64,000 bases of DNA from Achromobacter spanius (GTDB lineage Bacteria; Pseudomonadota; Gammaproteobacteria; Burkholderiales; Burkholderiaceae_B), in NCBI RefSeq assembly GCF_002812705.1, contig NZ_CP025030.1:3410001-3474000 (forward strand). Reading direction: 5' to 3'. Below the pieces are notes generated by a model, which was not told where the DNA came from, ran no database searches, and was given only the letters and a program-made list of their open reading frames with translations. The first letter of the stretch is position 1. The number at the start of each line of letters is the position of its first letter. A program made the position numbers and the translations under genes. Shown here in pieces: positions 22,233 through 27,971 of the stretch.

Positions 22233-23516
22233 TCAGGCGCCGCGCAGCACCCGATCCAGTTCCAATACCGATTGGTACAAGACCCGCGTGCCGTCCAGCA
22301 ACTGTGCCGGTTCAATCCATTCTTCCGGGCAATGGCTGCGGCCGTTCAGGCACGGGATGAAGATCATGCCGATGGGGCCGGTGGGCGCCATGTAGACGGC
22401 GTCGTGGCCGGCGCCGCTGGGCAGGCGCATCGACGCGTAGCCCAATTGGTCGGCCGCCGCCTTGACGGCGTCCATCACCAAGGGCGAGCAGTCGGTGGGC
22501 TGGGCGCGGCTTAGCGGGGTGAAGCCCGCCGTCAGGCGCAACGCCTTCAGGTCGCTGGCCACGCCGGCCATCAGCGTTTCCGGGAAGGTGTCAAGCACCG
22601 CGTTGCTGTCGCTGCGCATTTCCAGGGTCATTTCCACGCGCCCCGGCACCGCGTTGGCGGCGTTGGGCGTCATCGACAGACGGCCCACGGTGGCCACCAC
22701 GTAATGCGGGTTGCCGCTGGCGGCGCTGGCCTGGCGGCTGGCCGCGTCGATGATGCGGGCGGCGCCCACCAGGGCGTCGCGGCGGATGTCCATGGGCGTG
22801 GTGCCGGCGTGGTCGGGCTGGCCTTCCACCACGATCTGCACGCGGCGGATGCCCACAATGTTGGTCACCACGCCTATGGGCAGGCCACGGCTTTCCAGCA
22901 CGGGGCCTTGTTCGATATGCAATTCGACGAACGCGGCGGTGCCCCCGGGGCCACGCAGCGGCGCGTGCAGCGCGGCGGGGTCGCCGCCGATGCGCGCAAT
23001 GCCTTCGGCCAGCGATTCGCCGTCGGGGTTACAGGCGGCCAGCATGTCGGCCGTGAGCAGGCCGCTGAGCGCGCGGCTGCCCACGCACGAGATGCCGTAG
23101 TCGCTGGGTTCTTCGGACAGGAAATCGATGACTTCAAACGGGTGCGCCAGTTCGATGCCGTGCTCTTGCAGCGTGTGCGCGACTTCAATGCCGGCCAGCA
23201 CGCCGATGATGCCGTCAAAGCGGCCCCCGGCCATGACCGTGTCGCAATGCGAGCCGGTGGCGATGGGTTTGCGCAAGGGATCGCGGCCTGCGCGCGTGCC
23301 GACCAGGTTGCCGCCCGCATCCAGCCGAGTGGCCAGTCCGGCGGCCTCGAATTCGCCGCGCAACCAGGCGCGTGCGTCATCGAACAGCGGCGAAAAGGCG
23401 CGGCGCGTCCAGGGGACGTCGGGCAGGGTGAATTGGGACAAGGCTTCAACGCGGGCCCACAGGCGGTCGGCGTTGAGCGGCGGGAATGCGGGGGAGGGGG
23501 AAGTCGGATGCGGCAT
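22233..23516 (-). CDS. M20-family Zn-dependent amidohydrolase (N-carbamoyl-amino-acid/allantoate type)
   Basis: 427 aa. Metal-binding residues of the hydantoinase/carbamoylase group are visible: ATGSHCDTVMAGGRFDG (His90, bridging Asp near residue 101), SEEPSDYG, and ELHIEQGPVLE. The dimerisation domain has IVGIRRVQIVVEGQPDHAGTTPM with the substrate-contacting His. It likely hydrolyses an N-carbamoyl amino acid, ureidoglycolate or allantoate; no purine- or pyrimidine-catabolic partners are adjacent, so the substrate stays open. Confidence 0.88.
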   Translation of the reverse strand: MPHPTSPSPAFPPLNADRLWARVEALSQFTLPDVPWTRRAFSPLFDDARAWLRGEFEAAGLATRLDAGGNLVGTRAGRDPLRKPIATGSHCDTVMAGGRFDGIIGVLAGIEVAHTLQEHGIELAHPFEVIDFLSEEPSDYGISCVGSRALSGLLTADMLAACNPDGESLAEGIARIGGDPAALHAPLRGPGGTAAFVELHIEQGPVLESRGLPIGVVTNIVGIRRVQIVVEGQPDHAGTTPMDIRRDALVGAARIIDAASRQASAASGNPHYVVATVGRLSMTPNAANAVPGRVEMTLEMRSDSNAVLDTFPETLMAGVASDLKALRLTAGFTPLSRAQPTDCSPLVMDAVKAAADQLGYASMRLPSGAGHDAVYMAPTGPIGMIFIPCLNGRSHCPEEWIEPAQLLDGTRVLYQSVLELDRVLRGA

Positions 23517-23632: not shown

Positions 23633-24427
23633 TCAGGACCCCCGCCGCCAGGAAGGTTCACGCTTTTCCAGGAAGGCCGCCACGCCTTCGCGCGCTTCCT
23701 CGGTGCTGCGACACGCGGCGATGCGTTCGACGGTGTCGGCGATCAAGGCGGCGTTGATGGGGGCGCCGGCAAAGTCGCGCACCAACCGCTTGCTGGCCTT
23801 GACCGCGTCGGGGCCGTTGGCGCAGAGCGTGCGGCACAGCGCGTCGACCGCCTCGCCCAGCCGATCAGCGGGAACGACGTCATGCAGCAGGCCGAGGCGC
23901 AGCGCGGTGGCGGCGTCAAACCGTTCAGCCGTCAGGAAGTAGCGGTTCGCCGCGCGTTCGCCCATGGCGCGAATCACGTAAGGGCTGATGGTGGCCGGTA
24001 GCAGCCCCAAGCGGGTTTCCGACAGGCAGAAGTGCGCGCTGTCGGCCGCGATGGCGATGTCACACGCCGACAGCAGGCCCATGCCGCCCGCATAGGCGTC
24101 GCCGTTCACGCACGCCACCACCGGCTTTGAGCACGCCCAGATGGTGTGCAGCATGTCCGCCAGCCGGGTGGCGTCGGCGCGGTTGTCCGCATCCGTGTGC
24201 GTGGCCATCTTGCGCATCCAGTTCAGGTCGCCACCCGCGCAAAACGCCTTGCCGGCGCCGGTCAACAGCAGCACGCGCACGTCAGGGTCTTGCTCGGCCT
24301 GCCGCACTGCGCTTGTCAGCGCGGCGATCAGCGCCTCGTCGAAGGCGTTACGCATGTCGGGCCGGTTCAGCGTCAGGCGGGCGATGGCGCCGTCGCGCGC
24401 GACGTCCAGCGGGGGGGGTGCAGTCAT
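23633..24427 (-). CDS. Enoyl-CoA hydratase/isomerase family protein
   Basis: 264 aa crotonase fold: LLTGAGKAFCAGGDLNWM (first oxyanion-hole segment), ACVNGDAYAGGMGLLSACDIAIA (second, with the GG loop), and FCLSETRLGLLPATISPYVIRAMG. It resembles short-chain enoyl-CoA or methylglutaconyl/isohexenyl-glutaconyl-CoA hydratases; the latter is suggested by the LGLLPATISPYV segment, but this is recall without alignment. Divergent from the SDR gene with a 137-base AT-rich gap containing two copies of the operator motif shared with the TetR/ligase promoter. Confidence 0.9.
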   Translation of the reverse strand: MTAPPPLDVARDGAIARLTLNRPDMRNAFDEALIAALTSAVRQAEQDPDVRVLLLTGAGKAFCAGGDLNWMRKMATHTDADNRADATRLADMLHTIWACSKPVVACVNGDAYAGGMGLLSACDIAIAADSAHFCLSETRLGLLPATISPYVIRAMGERAANRYFLTAERFDAATALRLGLLHDVVPADRLGEAVDALCRTLCANGPDAVKASKRLVRDFAGAPINAALIADTVERIAACRSTEEAREGVAAFLEKREPSWRRGS

Positions 24428-24444: not shown

Positions 24445-24461
24445 TTGAATAGTGCTCAATA
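24445..24461 (-). promoter_or_regulatory. Shared operator copy 1 (TATTGAG-N6-TCAA), hydratase promoter
   Basis: Read on the minus strand the site is TATTGAGCACTATTCAA, 18 bases upstream of the hydratase start codon. The core is a TTGA-N7-TCAA dyad. It matches copies 2 and 3 at all eleven fixed positions. Confidence 0.65.
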
Positions 24462-24528
24462 AATAATAGGGGTTTAGTCAGAAGATTCTATGGGTAAAAC
24501 TACCTTTATGGGATGCGTGGGTTGTAAG

Positions 24529-24545
24529 TATTGAGTTATCCTCAA
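24529..24545 (+). promoter_or_regulatory. Shared operator copy 2, SDR promoter
   Basis: TATTGAGTTATCCTCAA, with the arms extended to TTGAG-N5-CTCAA, ends 19 bases before the SDR start codon (24565). Same motif as at 24445 and 26242. Confidence 0.65.
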
Positions 24546-24564
24546 AAAAATATCGGAGCGATCC

Positions 24565-25518
24565 ATGGACCCACAAGCAAACCAACATGCGGCCCCTCAA
24601 GCAGGCAACCACACCGCCACCACGCGATACGCCTCGGTCTTTCGGCCGGGCCTATTCGACGGCAAGACCCTGGTGGTGACGGGCGGCGGCAGCGGCTTGG
24701 GACGTTGCACCGCGCACGAGCTTGCGTCATTGGGCGCGAACCTGGCGCTGGTGGGACGCAAGCCGGAAAAGCTGGAAGCGGCAAGCGCGGAAATCGCGCG
24801 CATCTACCCCGAAGCGGCGGGGCGCATCAGCCTGCACGCTTGCGACATCCGCGACGAAGCCGGCGTGCGCGGCGCGGTGGCGGATGTGCTGGCCCGGCAC
24901 GGCGCGATCGACGGGCTGTTCAATTGCGCGGGCGGGCAGTTTCCCGCTCCGCTGGACCGCATCAGCCTGAATGGCTGGAACGCCGTGGTGCAGAACAATC
25001 TGCACGGCACCTTCCTGATGGCGCGCGAGGTCTACACGCAGCATATGCGCCAGCACGGCGGGGCCATCGTGAACATGCTGGCCGACATCTGGGGCGGCAT
25101 GCCGGGCATGGGGCATTCGGGCGCGGCGCGCGCCGGCGTGTGGAACCTGACTGAAACCGCGGCCTGCGAATGGGCGCATGCGGGCGTGCGGGTGAATGCG
25201 GTGGCGCCAGGGTGGATCGCGTCCAGCGGCATGGACAGCTACGACGACGATTACCGCGCGGTGCTGCGCGACCTGAAAACCAAGGTGCCGCTGCAACGCT
25301 TCGGCACCGAGGCCGAGCTGGCGGCGGCGGTGGTGTTCCTGCTGTCGCCCGCGTCAGCCTTCATCAACGGCACGGTCATCCGGGTGGACGGCGGCGTGCC
25401 CAACGCTCGCCATTCCTGGACCTTGCAGCCGGCCGAGCGCGGCGAGGTCTATAACGGCTTTCCTCAGTACGTGCCGCCATCCTTGTTTTCAGAGCCCGCC
25501 GATTCCTCGGCGGCCTGA
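24565..25518 (+). CDS. SDR-family oxidoreductase lacking the usual Tyr/Lys pair
   Basis: 317 aa. The NAD(P)-binding TGGGSGLG is at about residues 33-40 and the NAG-like motif appears as NCAGG. Where classical SDRs have YxxxK, this protein reads GHSGAARAGVWNLTETAA: the Tyr position is His or absent and the Lys is Arg. The same region in 2,4-dienoyl-CoA reductases also lacks Tyr, so it may belong to that branch or to the citronellol/citronellal-dehydrogenase-like branch. SD GGAG is 9 bases before the ATG. The last 55 bases overlap the 3' end of the convergent TetR gene. Confidence 0.85.
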   Translation: MDPQANQHAAPQAGNHTATTRYASVFRPGLFDGKTLVVTGGGSGLGRCTAHELASLGANLALVGRKPEKLEAASAEIARIYPEAAGRISLHACDIRDEAGVRGAVADVLARHGAIDGLFNCAGGQFPAPLDRISLNGWNAVVQNNLHGTFLMAREVYTQHMRQHGGAIVNMLADIWGGMPGMGHSGAARAGVWNLTETAACEWAHAGVRVNAVAPGWIASSGMDSYDDDYRAVLRDLKTKVPLQRFGTEAELAAAVVFLLSPASAFINGTVIRVDGGVPNARHSWTLQPAERGEVYNGFPQYVPPSLFSEPADSSAA

Positions 25519-26207
25519 AGCCGATGCAGGGCGTCGCGCACTTCGCCGCGAAAGCGGGCCAACGCCAGCGCATGCTGGCGTGGGGGCTGCAAGGCCTGCC
25601 ACAAAAAGCCGACCAGTTGCTCGGCCGTGCCGGCCACGTCCACGCGCGCGCCACGCAGAATGGCGTCCCACAGCACATGCTCCATCGGCCCGTAGACCGT
25701 GGAACGCAGCAGCCGCAACGGCATGTCCTGGCGGATGTCGCCGTCGGCCTGCCCCTGGGCCAGAATGCGCATCAGCGGCGCGGTATAGCGGCGCTGCAAA
25801 CCCGCGTAGATCTCACCGAAATCGTCGTTGCGCGCACGCCCCTCCGACAGAATGAACGCGCACAGGCCCGGCCCTTCGGCCAGCAGGTGCCGCAAATGCG
25901 TGTGCACCAGGTAGTGCAATTGCGCACGCGCGCCCTGCACGTGCGGCAGGTTGTCTTCCACCTTGGCGATGATCTCGTCATACCAATCGCTGATTACCCG
26001 CACGCACAGTTCACGCTTGCCGCCGAAGTACGTGAAGATGGTGGCTTCGGACACGCCCAGCCGCTGGGCGATCTCGGTCGTCGTGGCGGCCTGGAACCCG
26101 GCTTCGGAAAAGACTTGGCGGGCCATGTGCAGAATGTCGCGGATGCGTTGCTCGGACTTGGCGCTGGCCGGCGGGCGGCGGGTCGGGACGACGGGGGTTT
26201 TTTCCAT
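25464..26207 (-). CDS. TetR/AcrR-family transcriptional regulator
   Basis: 247 aa. Helix-turn-helix near residues 20-65: RIRDILHMARQVFSEAGFQ, then TTTEIAQRLGVSEATIFTYFGGKRELC, followed by an all-helical ligand domain. Divergent from the CoA ligase and placed inside the hydratase/SDR/ligase module. All three promoter regions of the module share a 17-base palindromic motif, which makes this regulator the probable local controller; the ligand is likely an acyl-CoA of the pathway (inference). Confidence 0.92.
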   Translation of the reverse strand: MEKTPVVPTRRPPASAKSEQRIRDILHMARQVFSEAGFQAATTTEIAQRLGVSEATIFTYFGGKRELCVRVISDWYDEIIAKVEDNLPHVQGARAQLHYLVHTHLRHLLAEGPGLCAFILSEGRARNDDFGEIYAGLQRRYTAPLMRILAQGQADGDIRQDMPLRLLRSTVYGPMEHVLWDAILRGARVDVAGTAEQLVGFLWQALQPPRQHALALARFRGEVRDALHRLQAAEESAGSENKDGGTY

Positions 26208-26241
26208 GCGGACGGCAAAAGGGCGGTGGGGCGGGGCTTAT

Positions 26242-26258
26242 TATTGAGCCAGGGTCAA
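26242..26258 (+). promoter_or_regulatory. Shared operator copy 3, TetR/CoA-ligase divergent promoter
   Basis: TATTGAGCCAGGGTCAA lies 34 bases before the TetR start codon and 50 before the ligase start codon. A wider inverted repeat CCAGGG-N18-CCCTGG (26249-26278) overlaps it. Same motif as at 24445 and 24529. Confidence 0.65.
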
Positions 26259-26308: not shown

Positions 26309-27931
26309 ATGCTGTCCCGAGCCGAATCCTACAAGCAGCTTGTGTCCCAATTCCAATGGCAGGTGCCGGAATACTTCAACATCGGCGTGGACGCCTGCGA
26401 CAAATGGGCAGACGGCAGTGGCCGCCTGGCCCTGATCTTCGAAAAAAGCGACGGCGCCCAAACGCGCTATTCGTTCGACGACATCAAGGCGCAATCCAAC
26501 CGCCTGGCGCATAGCCTGACGCGCCACGGCGTAGCGCGCGGCGACCGCGTGGCCGTGTACCTGCCGCAAGCGCCCGAAACCGCGGTCACGCATATTGCCG
26601 TCTACAAGATGGGCGCGGTGGCGGTACCGCTGTTCACGCTGTTTGGCGTGGACGCCATCCAGTTCCGCCTGGCCAACAGCGGCGCGGTGGCGCTGGTGAC
26701 GGATACGGAAGGGTGCCGAAAACTGCACGAGATACGCGCCAGCCTGCCGAACTTGAAGGTCGTGTATTGCATCGACGGCGACGGCGAGGACGGCACGGTG
26801 CCGTTTCACGCGGCCTCGGCCCAAGAGTCCGACGACTACACCCCGGTGAACACCGCCGCGGATGATCCTGCCGTGATCATCTACACATCGGGCACCACGG
26901 GCAAGCCCAAGGGCGCGCTGCACGCGCACCGCGTCCTGTTGGGCCACCTGCCGGGCGTGGAGATGTCGCACGAGTTCTTTCCCGAAAACGCCGCCTTGAT
27001 GTGGACGCCGGCCGACTGGGCCTGGATCGGCGGCCTGCTGGATGTATTGCTGCCGGCCTGGCACCACGGCGTGCCGGTGCTGGCCCGGCGCTTTGAAAAA
27101 TTCGACGGCACGTCCGCGCTGGAATTGATGGCGCGCCACGGCGTCACCCACACCTTCCTGCCGCCCACCGCGCTGAAGATGATGCGCGGTTCGGCCTACC
27201 CGGAAGGCGCCGGCCCGCTGGCGCTACGCTCGGTGGCCAGCGGCGGCGAATCGTTGGGCGCCGAACTGATCGACTGGGGTCGCCGCGTGCTGGGGGTGAC
27301 CATCAACGAGTTCTACGGCCAGACCGAATGCAACATGCTGGTGTCGTCGTGCTCGTCGCTGTTCGACCCGGAAATCGGGTCGATCGGCCGCGCGGCGCCG
27401 GGCCATCGCGTGGTTATTGTGGATGACCTGGGTGTTGAAGTGGCCGATGGACAGGAGGGCAACATCGGCGTATTGCGGCCCGACCCCGTCATGTTCCTGG
27501 GCTACTGGAACAACCCCGATGCCACCGCCGAGAAATTCGTGGGCGACACCCTGCTGACCGGCGACCTGGGCGTGCGCGACGCGCGCGGCTTCATCCGCTT
27601 CGTGGGCCGCAACGACGACGTCATCACCAGCGCCGGCTACCGCATCGGCCCCGCGCCCATCGAAGATTGCCTGATCGGCCACCCGGCCGTGCGCATGGCC
27701 GCGGTGGTGGGCGTGCCCGACGAACAGCGCACCGAAATCGTCATGGCGTATGTGGTGCTGAACGATGGCTTCGACGGCGACGACGCCTTGGTCAAGGCCT
27801 TGCAGGCGCATGTGCGCACCCGTCTGGCCGCGCACGAATACCCGCGCGCCATCCGCTTTGTAACCAGTTTGCCAACGACCGCCACCGGCAAGATCATTCG
27901 TCGAGAGTTGCGCGACGGAAGCTACCGTTGA
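26309..27931 (+). CDS. AMP-forming acyl-CoA ligase (acetyl/medium-chain type)
   Basis: 540 aa. ANL superfamily: P-loop YTSGTTGKPKGALHAHRV, EFYGQTECNM, TGDLGVRDARGFIRFVGRNDDVI and C-terminal LPTTATGKIIRRELR with the catalytic Lys. The segment after the P-loop (GHLPGVEMSHEFFPENA, DWAWIGGLLDVLLP) resembles the acetate/medium-chain acyl-CoA synthetase group. Start at 26309 is preferred; the frame also offers a TTG at 26264 without ribosome-binding site. Divergent from TetR; supplies the CoA ester that the hydratase and SDR would act on. Confidence 0.9.
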   Translation: MLSRAESYKQLVSQFQWQVPEYFNIGVDACDKWADGSGRLALIFEKSDGAQTRYSFDDIKAQSNRLAHSLTRHGVARGDRVAVYLPQAPETAVTHIAVYKMGAVAVPLFTLFGVDAIQFRLANSGAVALVTDTEGCRKLHEIRASLPNLKVVYCIDGDGEDGTVPFHAASAQESDDYTPVNTAADDPAVIIYTSGTTGKPKGALHAHRVLLGHLPGVEMSHEFFPENAALMWTPADWAWIGGLLDVLLPAWHHGVPVLARRFEKFDGTSALELMARHGVTHTFLPPTALKMMRGSAYPEGAGPLALRSVASGGESLGAELIDWGRRVLGVTINEFYGQTECNMLVSSCSSLFDPEIGSIGRAAPGHRVVIVDDLGVEVADGQEGNIGVLRPDPVMFLGYWNNPDATAEKFVGDTLLTGDLGVRDARGFIRFVGRNDDVITSAGYRIGPAPIEDCLIGHPAVRMAAVVGVPDEQRTEIVMAYVVLNDGFDGDDALVKALQAHVRTRLAAHEYPRAIRFVTSLPTTATGKIIRRELRDGSYR

Positions 27932-27971
27932 GCTCGTCTCAACCCGTGACAATCTCGTCCATGTGGATGGG

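Follow-up and report, generated by a model that had tools for sequence, protein, structure and literature searches.

In the 64,000-nt window of the Achromobacter spanius genome analysed here, a small acyl-CoA gene module carries three copies of a short palindromic motif, which on sequence evidence are most likely operators of the TetR-family regulator encoded within the module (25464–26207, minus strand). Sequence comparison places this regulator as a sister branch of the TetRs that accompany leucine-breakdown (liu) genes in other Burkholderiales, with the same operator. We consider it probable that it is an acyl-CoA-released TetR, sister to those liu-linked proteins, that represses a side branch feeding a branched acid into leucine breakdown.

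Gene order and putative operator sites of the module

The module comprises, in order, genes for an enoyl-CoA hydratase/crotonase of the liuC-like kind (23633–24427, minus strand), a short-chain dehydrogenase (SDR; 24565–25518, plus strand) with closest likeness to AtuG and PECR, the FadR-like TetR (a likely repressor, minus strand) and an AMP-forming acyl-CoA ligase of the acetyl/medium-chain synthetase group (26309–27931, plus strand), followed by a 623-aa frame 3′ of the ligase whose sequence reads as phosphoenolpyruvate carboxykinase. An amidohydrolase adjoins the module (22233–23516, minus strand); its 667 bits against the NCBIfam model for N-carbamyl-L-glutamate amidohydrolase ErtE exceed the cut-off of 520.

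The preliminary description had located a copy of TATTGAG-N6-TCAA in each promoter region, and all three are exact: site 1 (24445–24461, minus strand) 17 bases before the hydratase start, site 2 (24529–24545, plus strand) 19 bases before the SDR start, and site 3 (26242–26258, plus strand) between the TetR and ligase starts, 34 and 50 bases from each (ligase ATG at 26309). These are the only exact copies of the 17-mer in the 6,425,783-base single-contig genome, where base composition predicts ~0.3. The motif, described earlier as centred on a TTGA-N7-TCAA dyad, has to be redrawn: the true unit is a 15-bp palindrome, TTGAG-N5-CTCAA, and related sequences do not conserve the leading TA. Among the three sites the palindrome is perfect at site 2 only (24531–24545), sites 1 and 3 being off by one arm base. 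The surroundings had been called GC-rich, which is true of the window (G+C 0.66) but not of the site-bearing gaps themselves (0.39 between hydratase and SDR; 0.53 between TetR and ligase). Scans of three gaps for sigma-70-type promoters returned 0 promoter-like sites, and a terminator-like site is present at 26318–26298.

The motif had also been offered as a means of finding further regulon members, an expectation that the A. spanius genome does not bear out. Whichever form of the motif is used, matches with at most one mismatch are about as frequent as in the control (15 versus 12 for a reversed control pattern with the 17-mer, no clear excess; 25 versus 28 with TTGAG-N5-CTCAA), so that the motif alone indicates no wider regulon in this genome. 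With up to two mismatches allowed, the window contains 8 matches to the 17-mer against 3.5 expected, a number reached by 6 of 100 shuffles. A further perfect palindrome (27928–27942) lies across the ligase stop codon; only 2 of the 26 Achromobacter loci compared have it in perfect form, so it is probably due to chance. The third perfect palindrome of the genome (G000:C1:3495804–3495818; L225:805–819) is directly before a frame that appears LysR-like from its translation. One single-mismatch site (G000:1728584) has the best candidate for an HMG-CoA lyase 3.8 kb away; the locus around the site (L181) gave no tblastn match to the liu or module proteins.

Conservation of the operator with its regulator

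Related loci were collected with a profile from eight aligned TetRs, and the best 80 of 405 were kept (27 from Achromobacter, L042–L068, and 53 others, L069–L121), a selection that favours close kin. In all 28 Achromobacter rows (the window plus the 27 loci) the hydratase–SDR gap contains exactly two TTGA-N7-TCAA dyads, 84–87 bases apart (85 in 23/28). The dyad arms are at 100% identity because the search pattern selects them, while their flanks drift (mean column identity 0.63 and 0.56); both blocks also stand out in a free alignment of the gaps, in which the inferred SDR start leaves several rows beginning within the SDR-side site. Of the 27 Achromobacter loci, 17 have an exact site 3, two have it with one mismatch (L043, L047), and in eight it is degenerate or absent (L049, L052, L059, L062, L063, L064, L065, L067). 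The earlier statement that all promoters of the module are marked is thus correct for the A. spanius genome but not genus-wide. A conserved block, CGTTATGATAG, is found in place of the lost site in the ligase–TetR gap of L049, L052, L059, L062, L063, L064 and L065. A search of 200 family genomes found the TetR in 12, 11 of which are Achromobacter; the twelfth (G135) has an SDR, a ligase and two sites.

A matrix built from the 71 exact Achromobacter dyads alone was used to scan the 53 non-Achromobacter loci, nearly all from Burkholderiales. In 47 of them its best match lay no more than 420 bases upstream of the TetR start, against 1.5 expected; the misses are L082, L086, L095, L098, L118 and L120, and in L082 the site sits between the TetR and its liu genes. 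None of 200 column-shuffled matrices reached 47 (mean 5.2, highest 46), the high-scoring ones sharing columns with the real matrix. Scored by plain consensus, the 53 upstream stretches yielded 34 perfect TTGAG-N5-CTCAA palindromes, 13 with one mismatch and six with two or more. In the controls, at most one mismatch was seen in 0/53 stretches taken from the 5′-terminal 420 bases of the TetR gene and in 31/1060 random stretches of the same loci, some of these overlapping real sites. Conservation of the motif upstream of orthologues had been proposed as a check in the preliminary description, and it was found on both scales, in the genus for the hydratase–SDR sites and outside it in the transfer test. 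Together, the two results make the sites most likely operators of this TetR and agree with their earlier assignment to the local regulator. In L090, L104 and L115 a second element, TTACGTATACGTCAA or TTACGTAAGCGTCAA, occurs near the TetR site, ~165–185 bases before the TetR start, and is perhaps the site of a second regulator acting on the same liu promoter.

The TetR carries the Pfam domains TetR_N and TetR_C_4, both over cut-off. Its predicted model (mean pLDDT 91.4) was used in a fold search, in which 11 of the 13 best chains were named FadR (TM 0.73–0.87 by target length) and the other two belong to 1vi0; some of the matched FadR chains carry stearoyl-CoA. With FadR chains as best matches of the model, an acyl-CoA is the obvious candidate for the releasing ligand, and the acyl-CoA-type ligand suggested earlier would fit both the FadR-like sequence and the model. 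Bacillus FadR, an acyl-CoA-released TetR repressor, provides the best sequence and fold matches and likewise has a TetR_C_4 domain, but the Achromobacter protein reaches 79.4 bits against the NCBIfam FadR equivalog, under its 200-bit cut-off, and comes from another phylum with other targets. Literature searches by title and abstract start, with subscription papers mostly uncovered, found no study of this regulator in Achromobacter, and a search with the motif string returned only unrelated papers.

Outside Achromobacter, tblastn placed the TetR near liuA and/or liuB homologues in 44/53 loci, 41 of which also have a hydratase in the locus; by family model the liu-set proteins are an acyl-CoA dehydrogenase, a carboxyltransferase, a crotonase and a biotin carboxylase. 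The A. spanius sites, for their part, precede one liu-like hydratase. In 6/53 loci (four Caballeronia, Burkholderia sp. S171 and a Paraburkholderia) the TetR is beside the same SDR, with the ligase in reach in five, and in L091, L093 and L095 tblastn found no liu, SDR or ligase homologue in reach. A quick TetR tree of 67 rows, including 6 of the 27 Achromobacter loci and all 53 others and subject to a long-branch warning, separates the 48 liu-labelled rows by a branch with SH-aLRT 99 (L091, L093 and L095, with no liu gene in reach, are counted among them) from the Achromobacter rows, G135 and the six rows linked to the SDR. In the branching order Achromobacter is joined to the liu rows first, and the Caballeronia SDR–ligase rows come later (SH-aLRT 82). 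The Achromobacter TetR has 54–63% identity to the liu-linked TetRs and the operator in common with them, and both TetR kinds occur in one genome (G315; L032 and L040).

Enzymes of the module and the pathways they may serve

The hydratase (Pfam ECH_1) is the best of 16 matches in the A. spanius genome to a Paraburkholderia liu-operon hydratase (65% identity; next 36%). As the closest relative of the liu-operon hydratases in the genome it resembles LiuC, methylglutaconyl-CoA hydratase, and may catalyse the same reaction. Among NCBIfam models it is below every cut-off shown, that for gamma-carboxygeranoyl-CoA hydratase included. Relatives outside Achromobacter (43–55% identity) were found in 19 of 121 family genomes searched, with an adjoining liuB or liuD homologue in six of these 19 loci and a ligase relative (63%) in two. 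These two loci (L223 and L224, from two genomes that belong to another genus within the family) have the ligase relative beside the hydratase relative (49–50%) and neither TetR nor SDR.

The liu cluster of A. spanius itself is at ~1.224–1.233 Mb (dehydrogenase, AceK, thiolase, carboxyltransferase, biotin carboxylase); the names liuA, liuB, liuC and liuD, and the corresponding steps of leucine breakdown, are assigned by operon order and family. No hydratase was found by tblastn in that 18 kb, nor within 1.5 kb on either side of liuB in 30 loci (11 from Achromobacter, that of A. spanius included), and the liuABD cluster of A. spanius has no TTGAG site within two mismatches. A palindrome, TTTACGTTTACGTAAACGTAA, precedes its liuA (L134, ~2175–2205) and resembles what we take to be the LiuR motif.

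The SDR matches PDB 6lln, which we take to be AtuG (E ~1e-106, residues 22–308), and 1yxm, human peroxisomal trans-2-enoyl-CoA reductase (PECR; E ~5e-63), aligning over nearly its whole length and having the stretch HSGAAR in common with both; 9 of 369 genomes of the class contain matches at E 1e-85 or better. Unlike AtuG, it is outside any atu cluster (AtuA plus geranyl-CoA carboxylase genes) in its own genome. The ligase (Pfam AMP-binding) matches PDB 5u2a, ACSM2A and 3etc; among NCBIfam models there were hits below cut-off only, and the matches included no solved or named enzyme that would fix its substrate. The pathway, which the preliminary description could not name, is therefore nameable in part, with a hydratase nearest to those of liu operons and an SDR of the AtuG kind.

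This SDR invites a different assignment, in which the sites are still operators of the TetR but the module serves breakdown of acyclic terpenes of the citronellol/geraniol type, not leucine. Its closest structure, 6lln, is named for citronellol catabolism, and four of eight wider loci around SDR relatives have a carboxyltransferase beside the SDR (L226, L227, L228 and L231, the last ending at a contig end; SDR identity 50–58%), with AtuA in L228 (482 bits), the sole locus tested for it; the other four (L229, L230, L232, L233) have none beside the SDR. Two AtuA-family genes in the A. spanius genome (L234, G000:C1:239663–240988, and L235, G000:C1:4312467–4313777; 484 and 458 bits) leave room for terpene-type chemistry. 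We nevertheless regard this assignment as unlikely. Carboxylase relatives are missing near the module and from the 1.5-kb flanks of both AtuA-family genes, one of which has an SDR relative at 33% in its flank; one close carboxyltransferase (80% to liuB) was found genome-wide, and the only other is 31% identical. Other crotonases give higher scores with the hydratase (212 and 210 bits) than does the solved isohexenylglutaconyl-CoA hydratase 4zu2 (141 bits), and the operator is unlike that of AtuR. AtuR/RdmA of Pseudomonas is described in PMC9973270 as a TetR repressor of acyclic terpene genes with two sites in its target promoter and the operator AGCAAGCGCTTGG and its complement. The Achromobacter module is similar in its predicted TetR repressor, two sites in a target promoter and AtuG-like SDR, but has TTGAG-N5-CTCAA in place of AGCAAGCGCTTGG and no Atu carboxylase. 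Identity of the module with Atu was rejected for want of a second close carboxylase, the AtuA-family genes elsewhere in the genome notwithstanding.

LiuQ, reportedly first described by Kazakov in 2009, is the closest comparison on the leucine side. According to PMC5343134 it is a TetR-family protein that regulates the use of branched-chain amino acids in betaproteobacteria, its group covering 14 genomes in 3 taxa; the main text of that paper nowhere mentions Achromobacter, Alcaligenaceae or Bordetella. The Achromobacter TetR is of the same family, in a betaproteobacterial host, with relatives that adjoin liu genes and share its operator, and kin and operator suggest the LiuQ group. It differs in lying outside the liu-linked clade and in its local targets (SDR, ligase and one hydratase), liuABD being elsewhere without a site. 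Equating it with LiuQ outright was rejected, since the tree separates the Achromobacter rows from that clade. Somewhat more doubtful than the terpene assignment is the view that the TetR is the Achromobacter orthologue of LiuQ and the module a leucine-regulon remnant, liuABD having been lost to another regulator and the SDR and ligase being incidental passengers. The common operator, the identity to liu-linked TetRs, the liu-like hydratase and the junction with the liu rows ahead of Caballeronia all accord with this, whereas the liu-linked rows form one clade without Achromobacter and one genome carries both TetR kinds. Moreover, the SDR and ligase accompany the same TetR kind in Caballeronia and others (the six SDR-linked loci) and in G135, which argues that they are not incidental.

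That the three matches are chance or promoter elements with no common regulator is very improbable, as near-matches at control level elsewhere in the genome would allow it but conservation across the genus and the transfer test with its shuffle control speak against it.

Proposed mechanism and biological meaning

If the module is, as we favour, a side branch into leucine breakdown under an acyl-CoA-released repressor, a TetR dimer would bind the 15-bp TTGAG-N5-CTCAA and repress the hydratase, SDR and ligase genes and its own. The two hydratase–SDR sites, about eight helical turns apart, may be occupied on one face of the DNA, and an acyl-CoA would free the repressor from DNA as in FadR, judging from the fold. 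A small acid, branched or isoprenoid, would be activated by the ligase; the acyl-CoA would undergo a redox reaction catalysed by the AtuG/PECR-like SDR; and the methylglutaconyl-CoA step absent from the liuABD cluster of A. spanius would fall to the liu-type hydratase, the module presumably draining into leucine breakdown. To judge from the operator shared with liu-linked TetRs and from the displaced hydratase, the inducer would be a branched acyl-CoA from the breakdown of leucine or of isoprenoid acids. A more specific proposal, which we advance tentatively, is that the module is an unrecognised entry route for a branched or isoprenoid carboxylic acid, via the ligase and the AtuG-like SDR, into leucine breakdown, and that in Achromobacter the liu hydratase has left liuABD and is now under the regulator of this route.

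A repressor switch of a familiar type, in an Achromobacter instance that is new, is well supported by these data. A TetR group found across Burkholderiales now has a concrete operator, TTGAG-N5-CTCAA; the AtuG-like SDR and the ligase are both tied to one inducer, and leucine breakdown in Achromobacter is suggested to be divided between two regulators. If the entry-route proposal is true, an outside acid would, via its CoA ester, govern one step of leucine breakdown, while liuABD would answer to another regulator.
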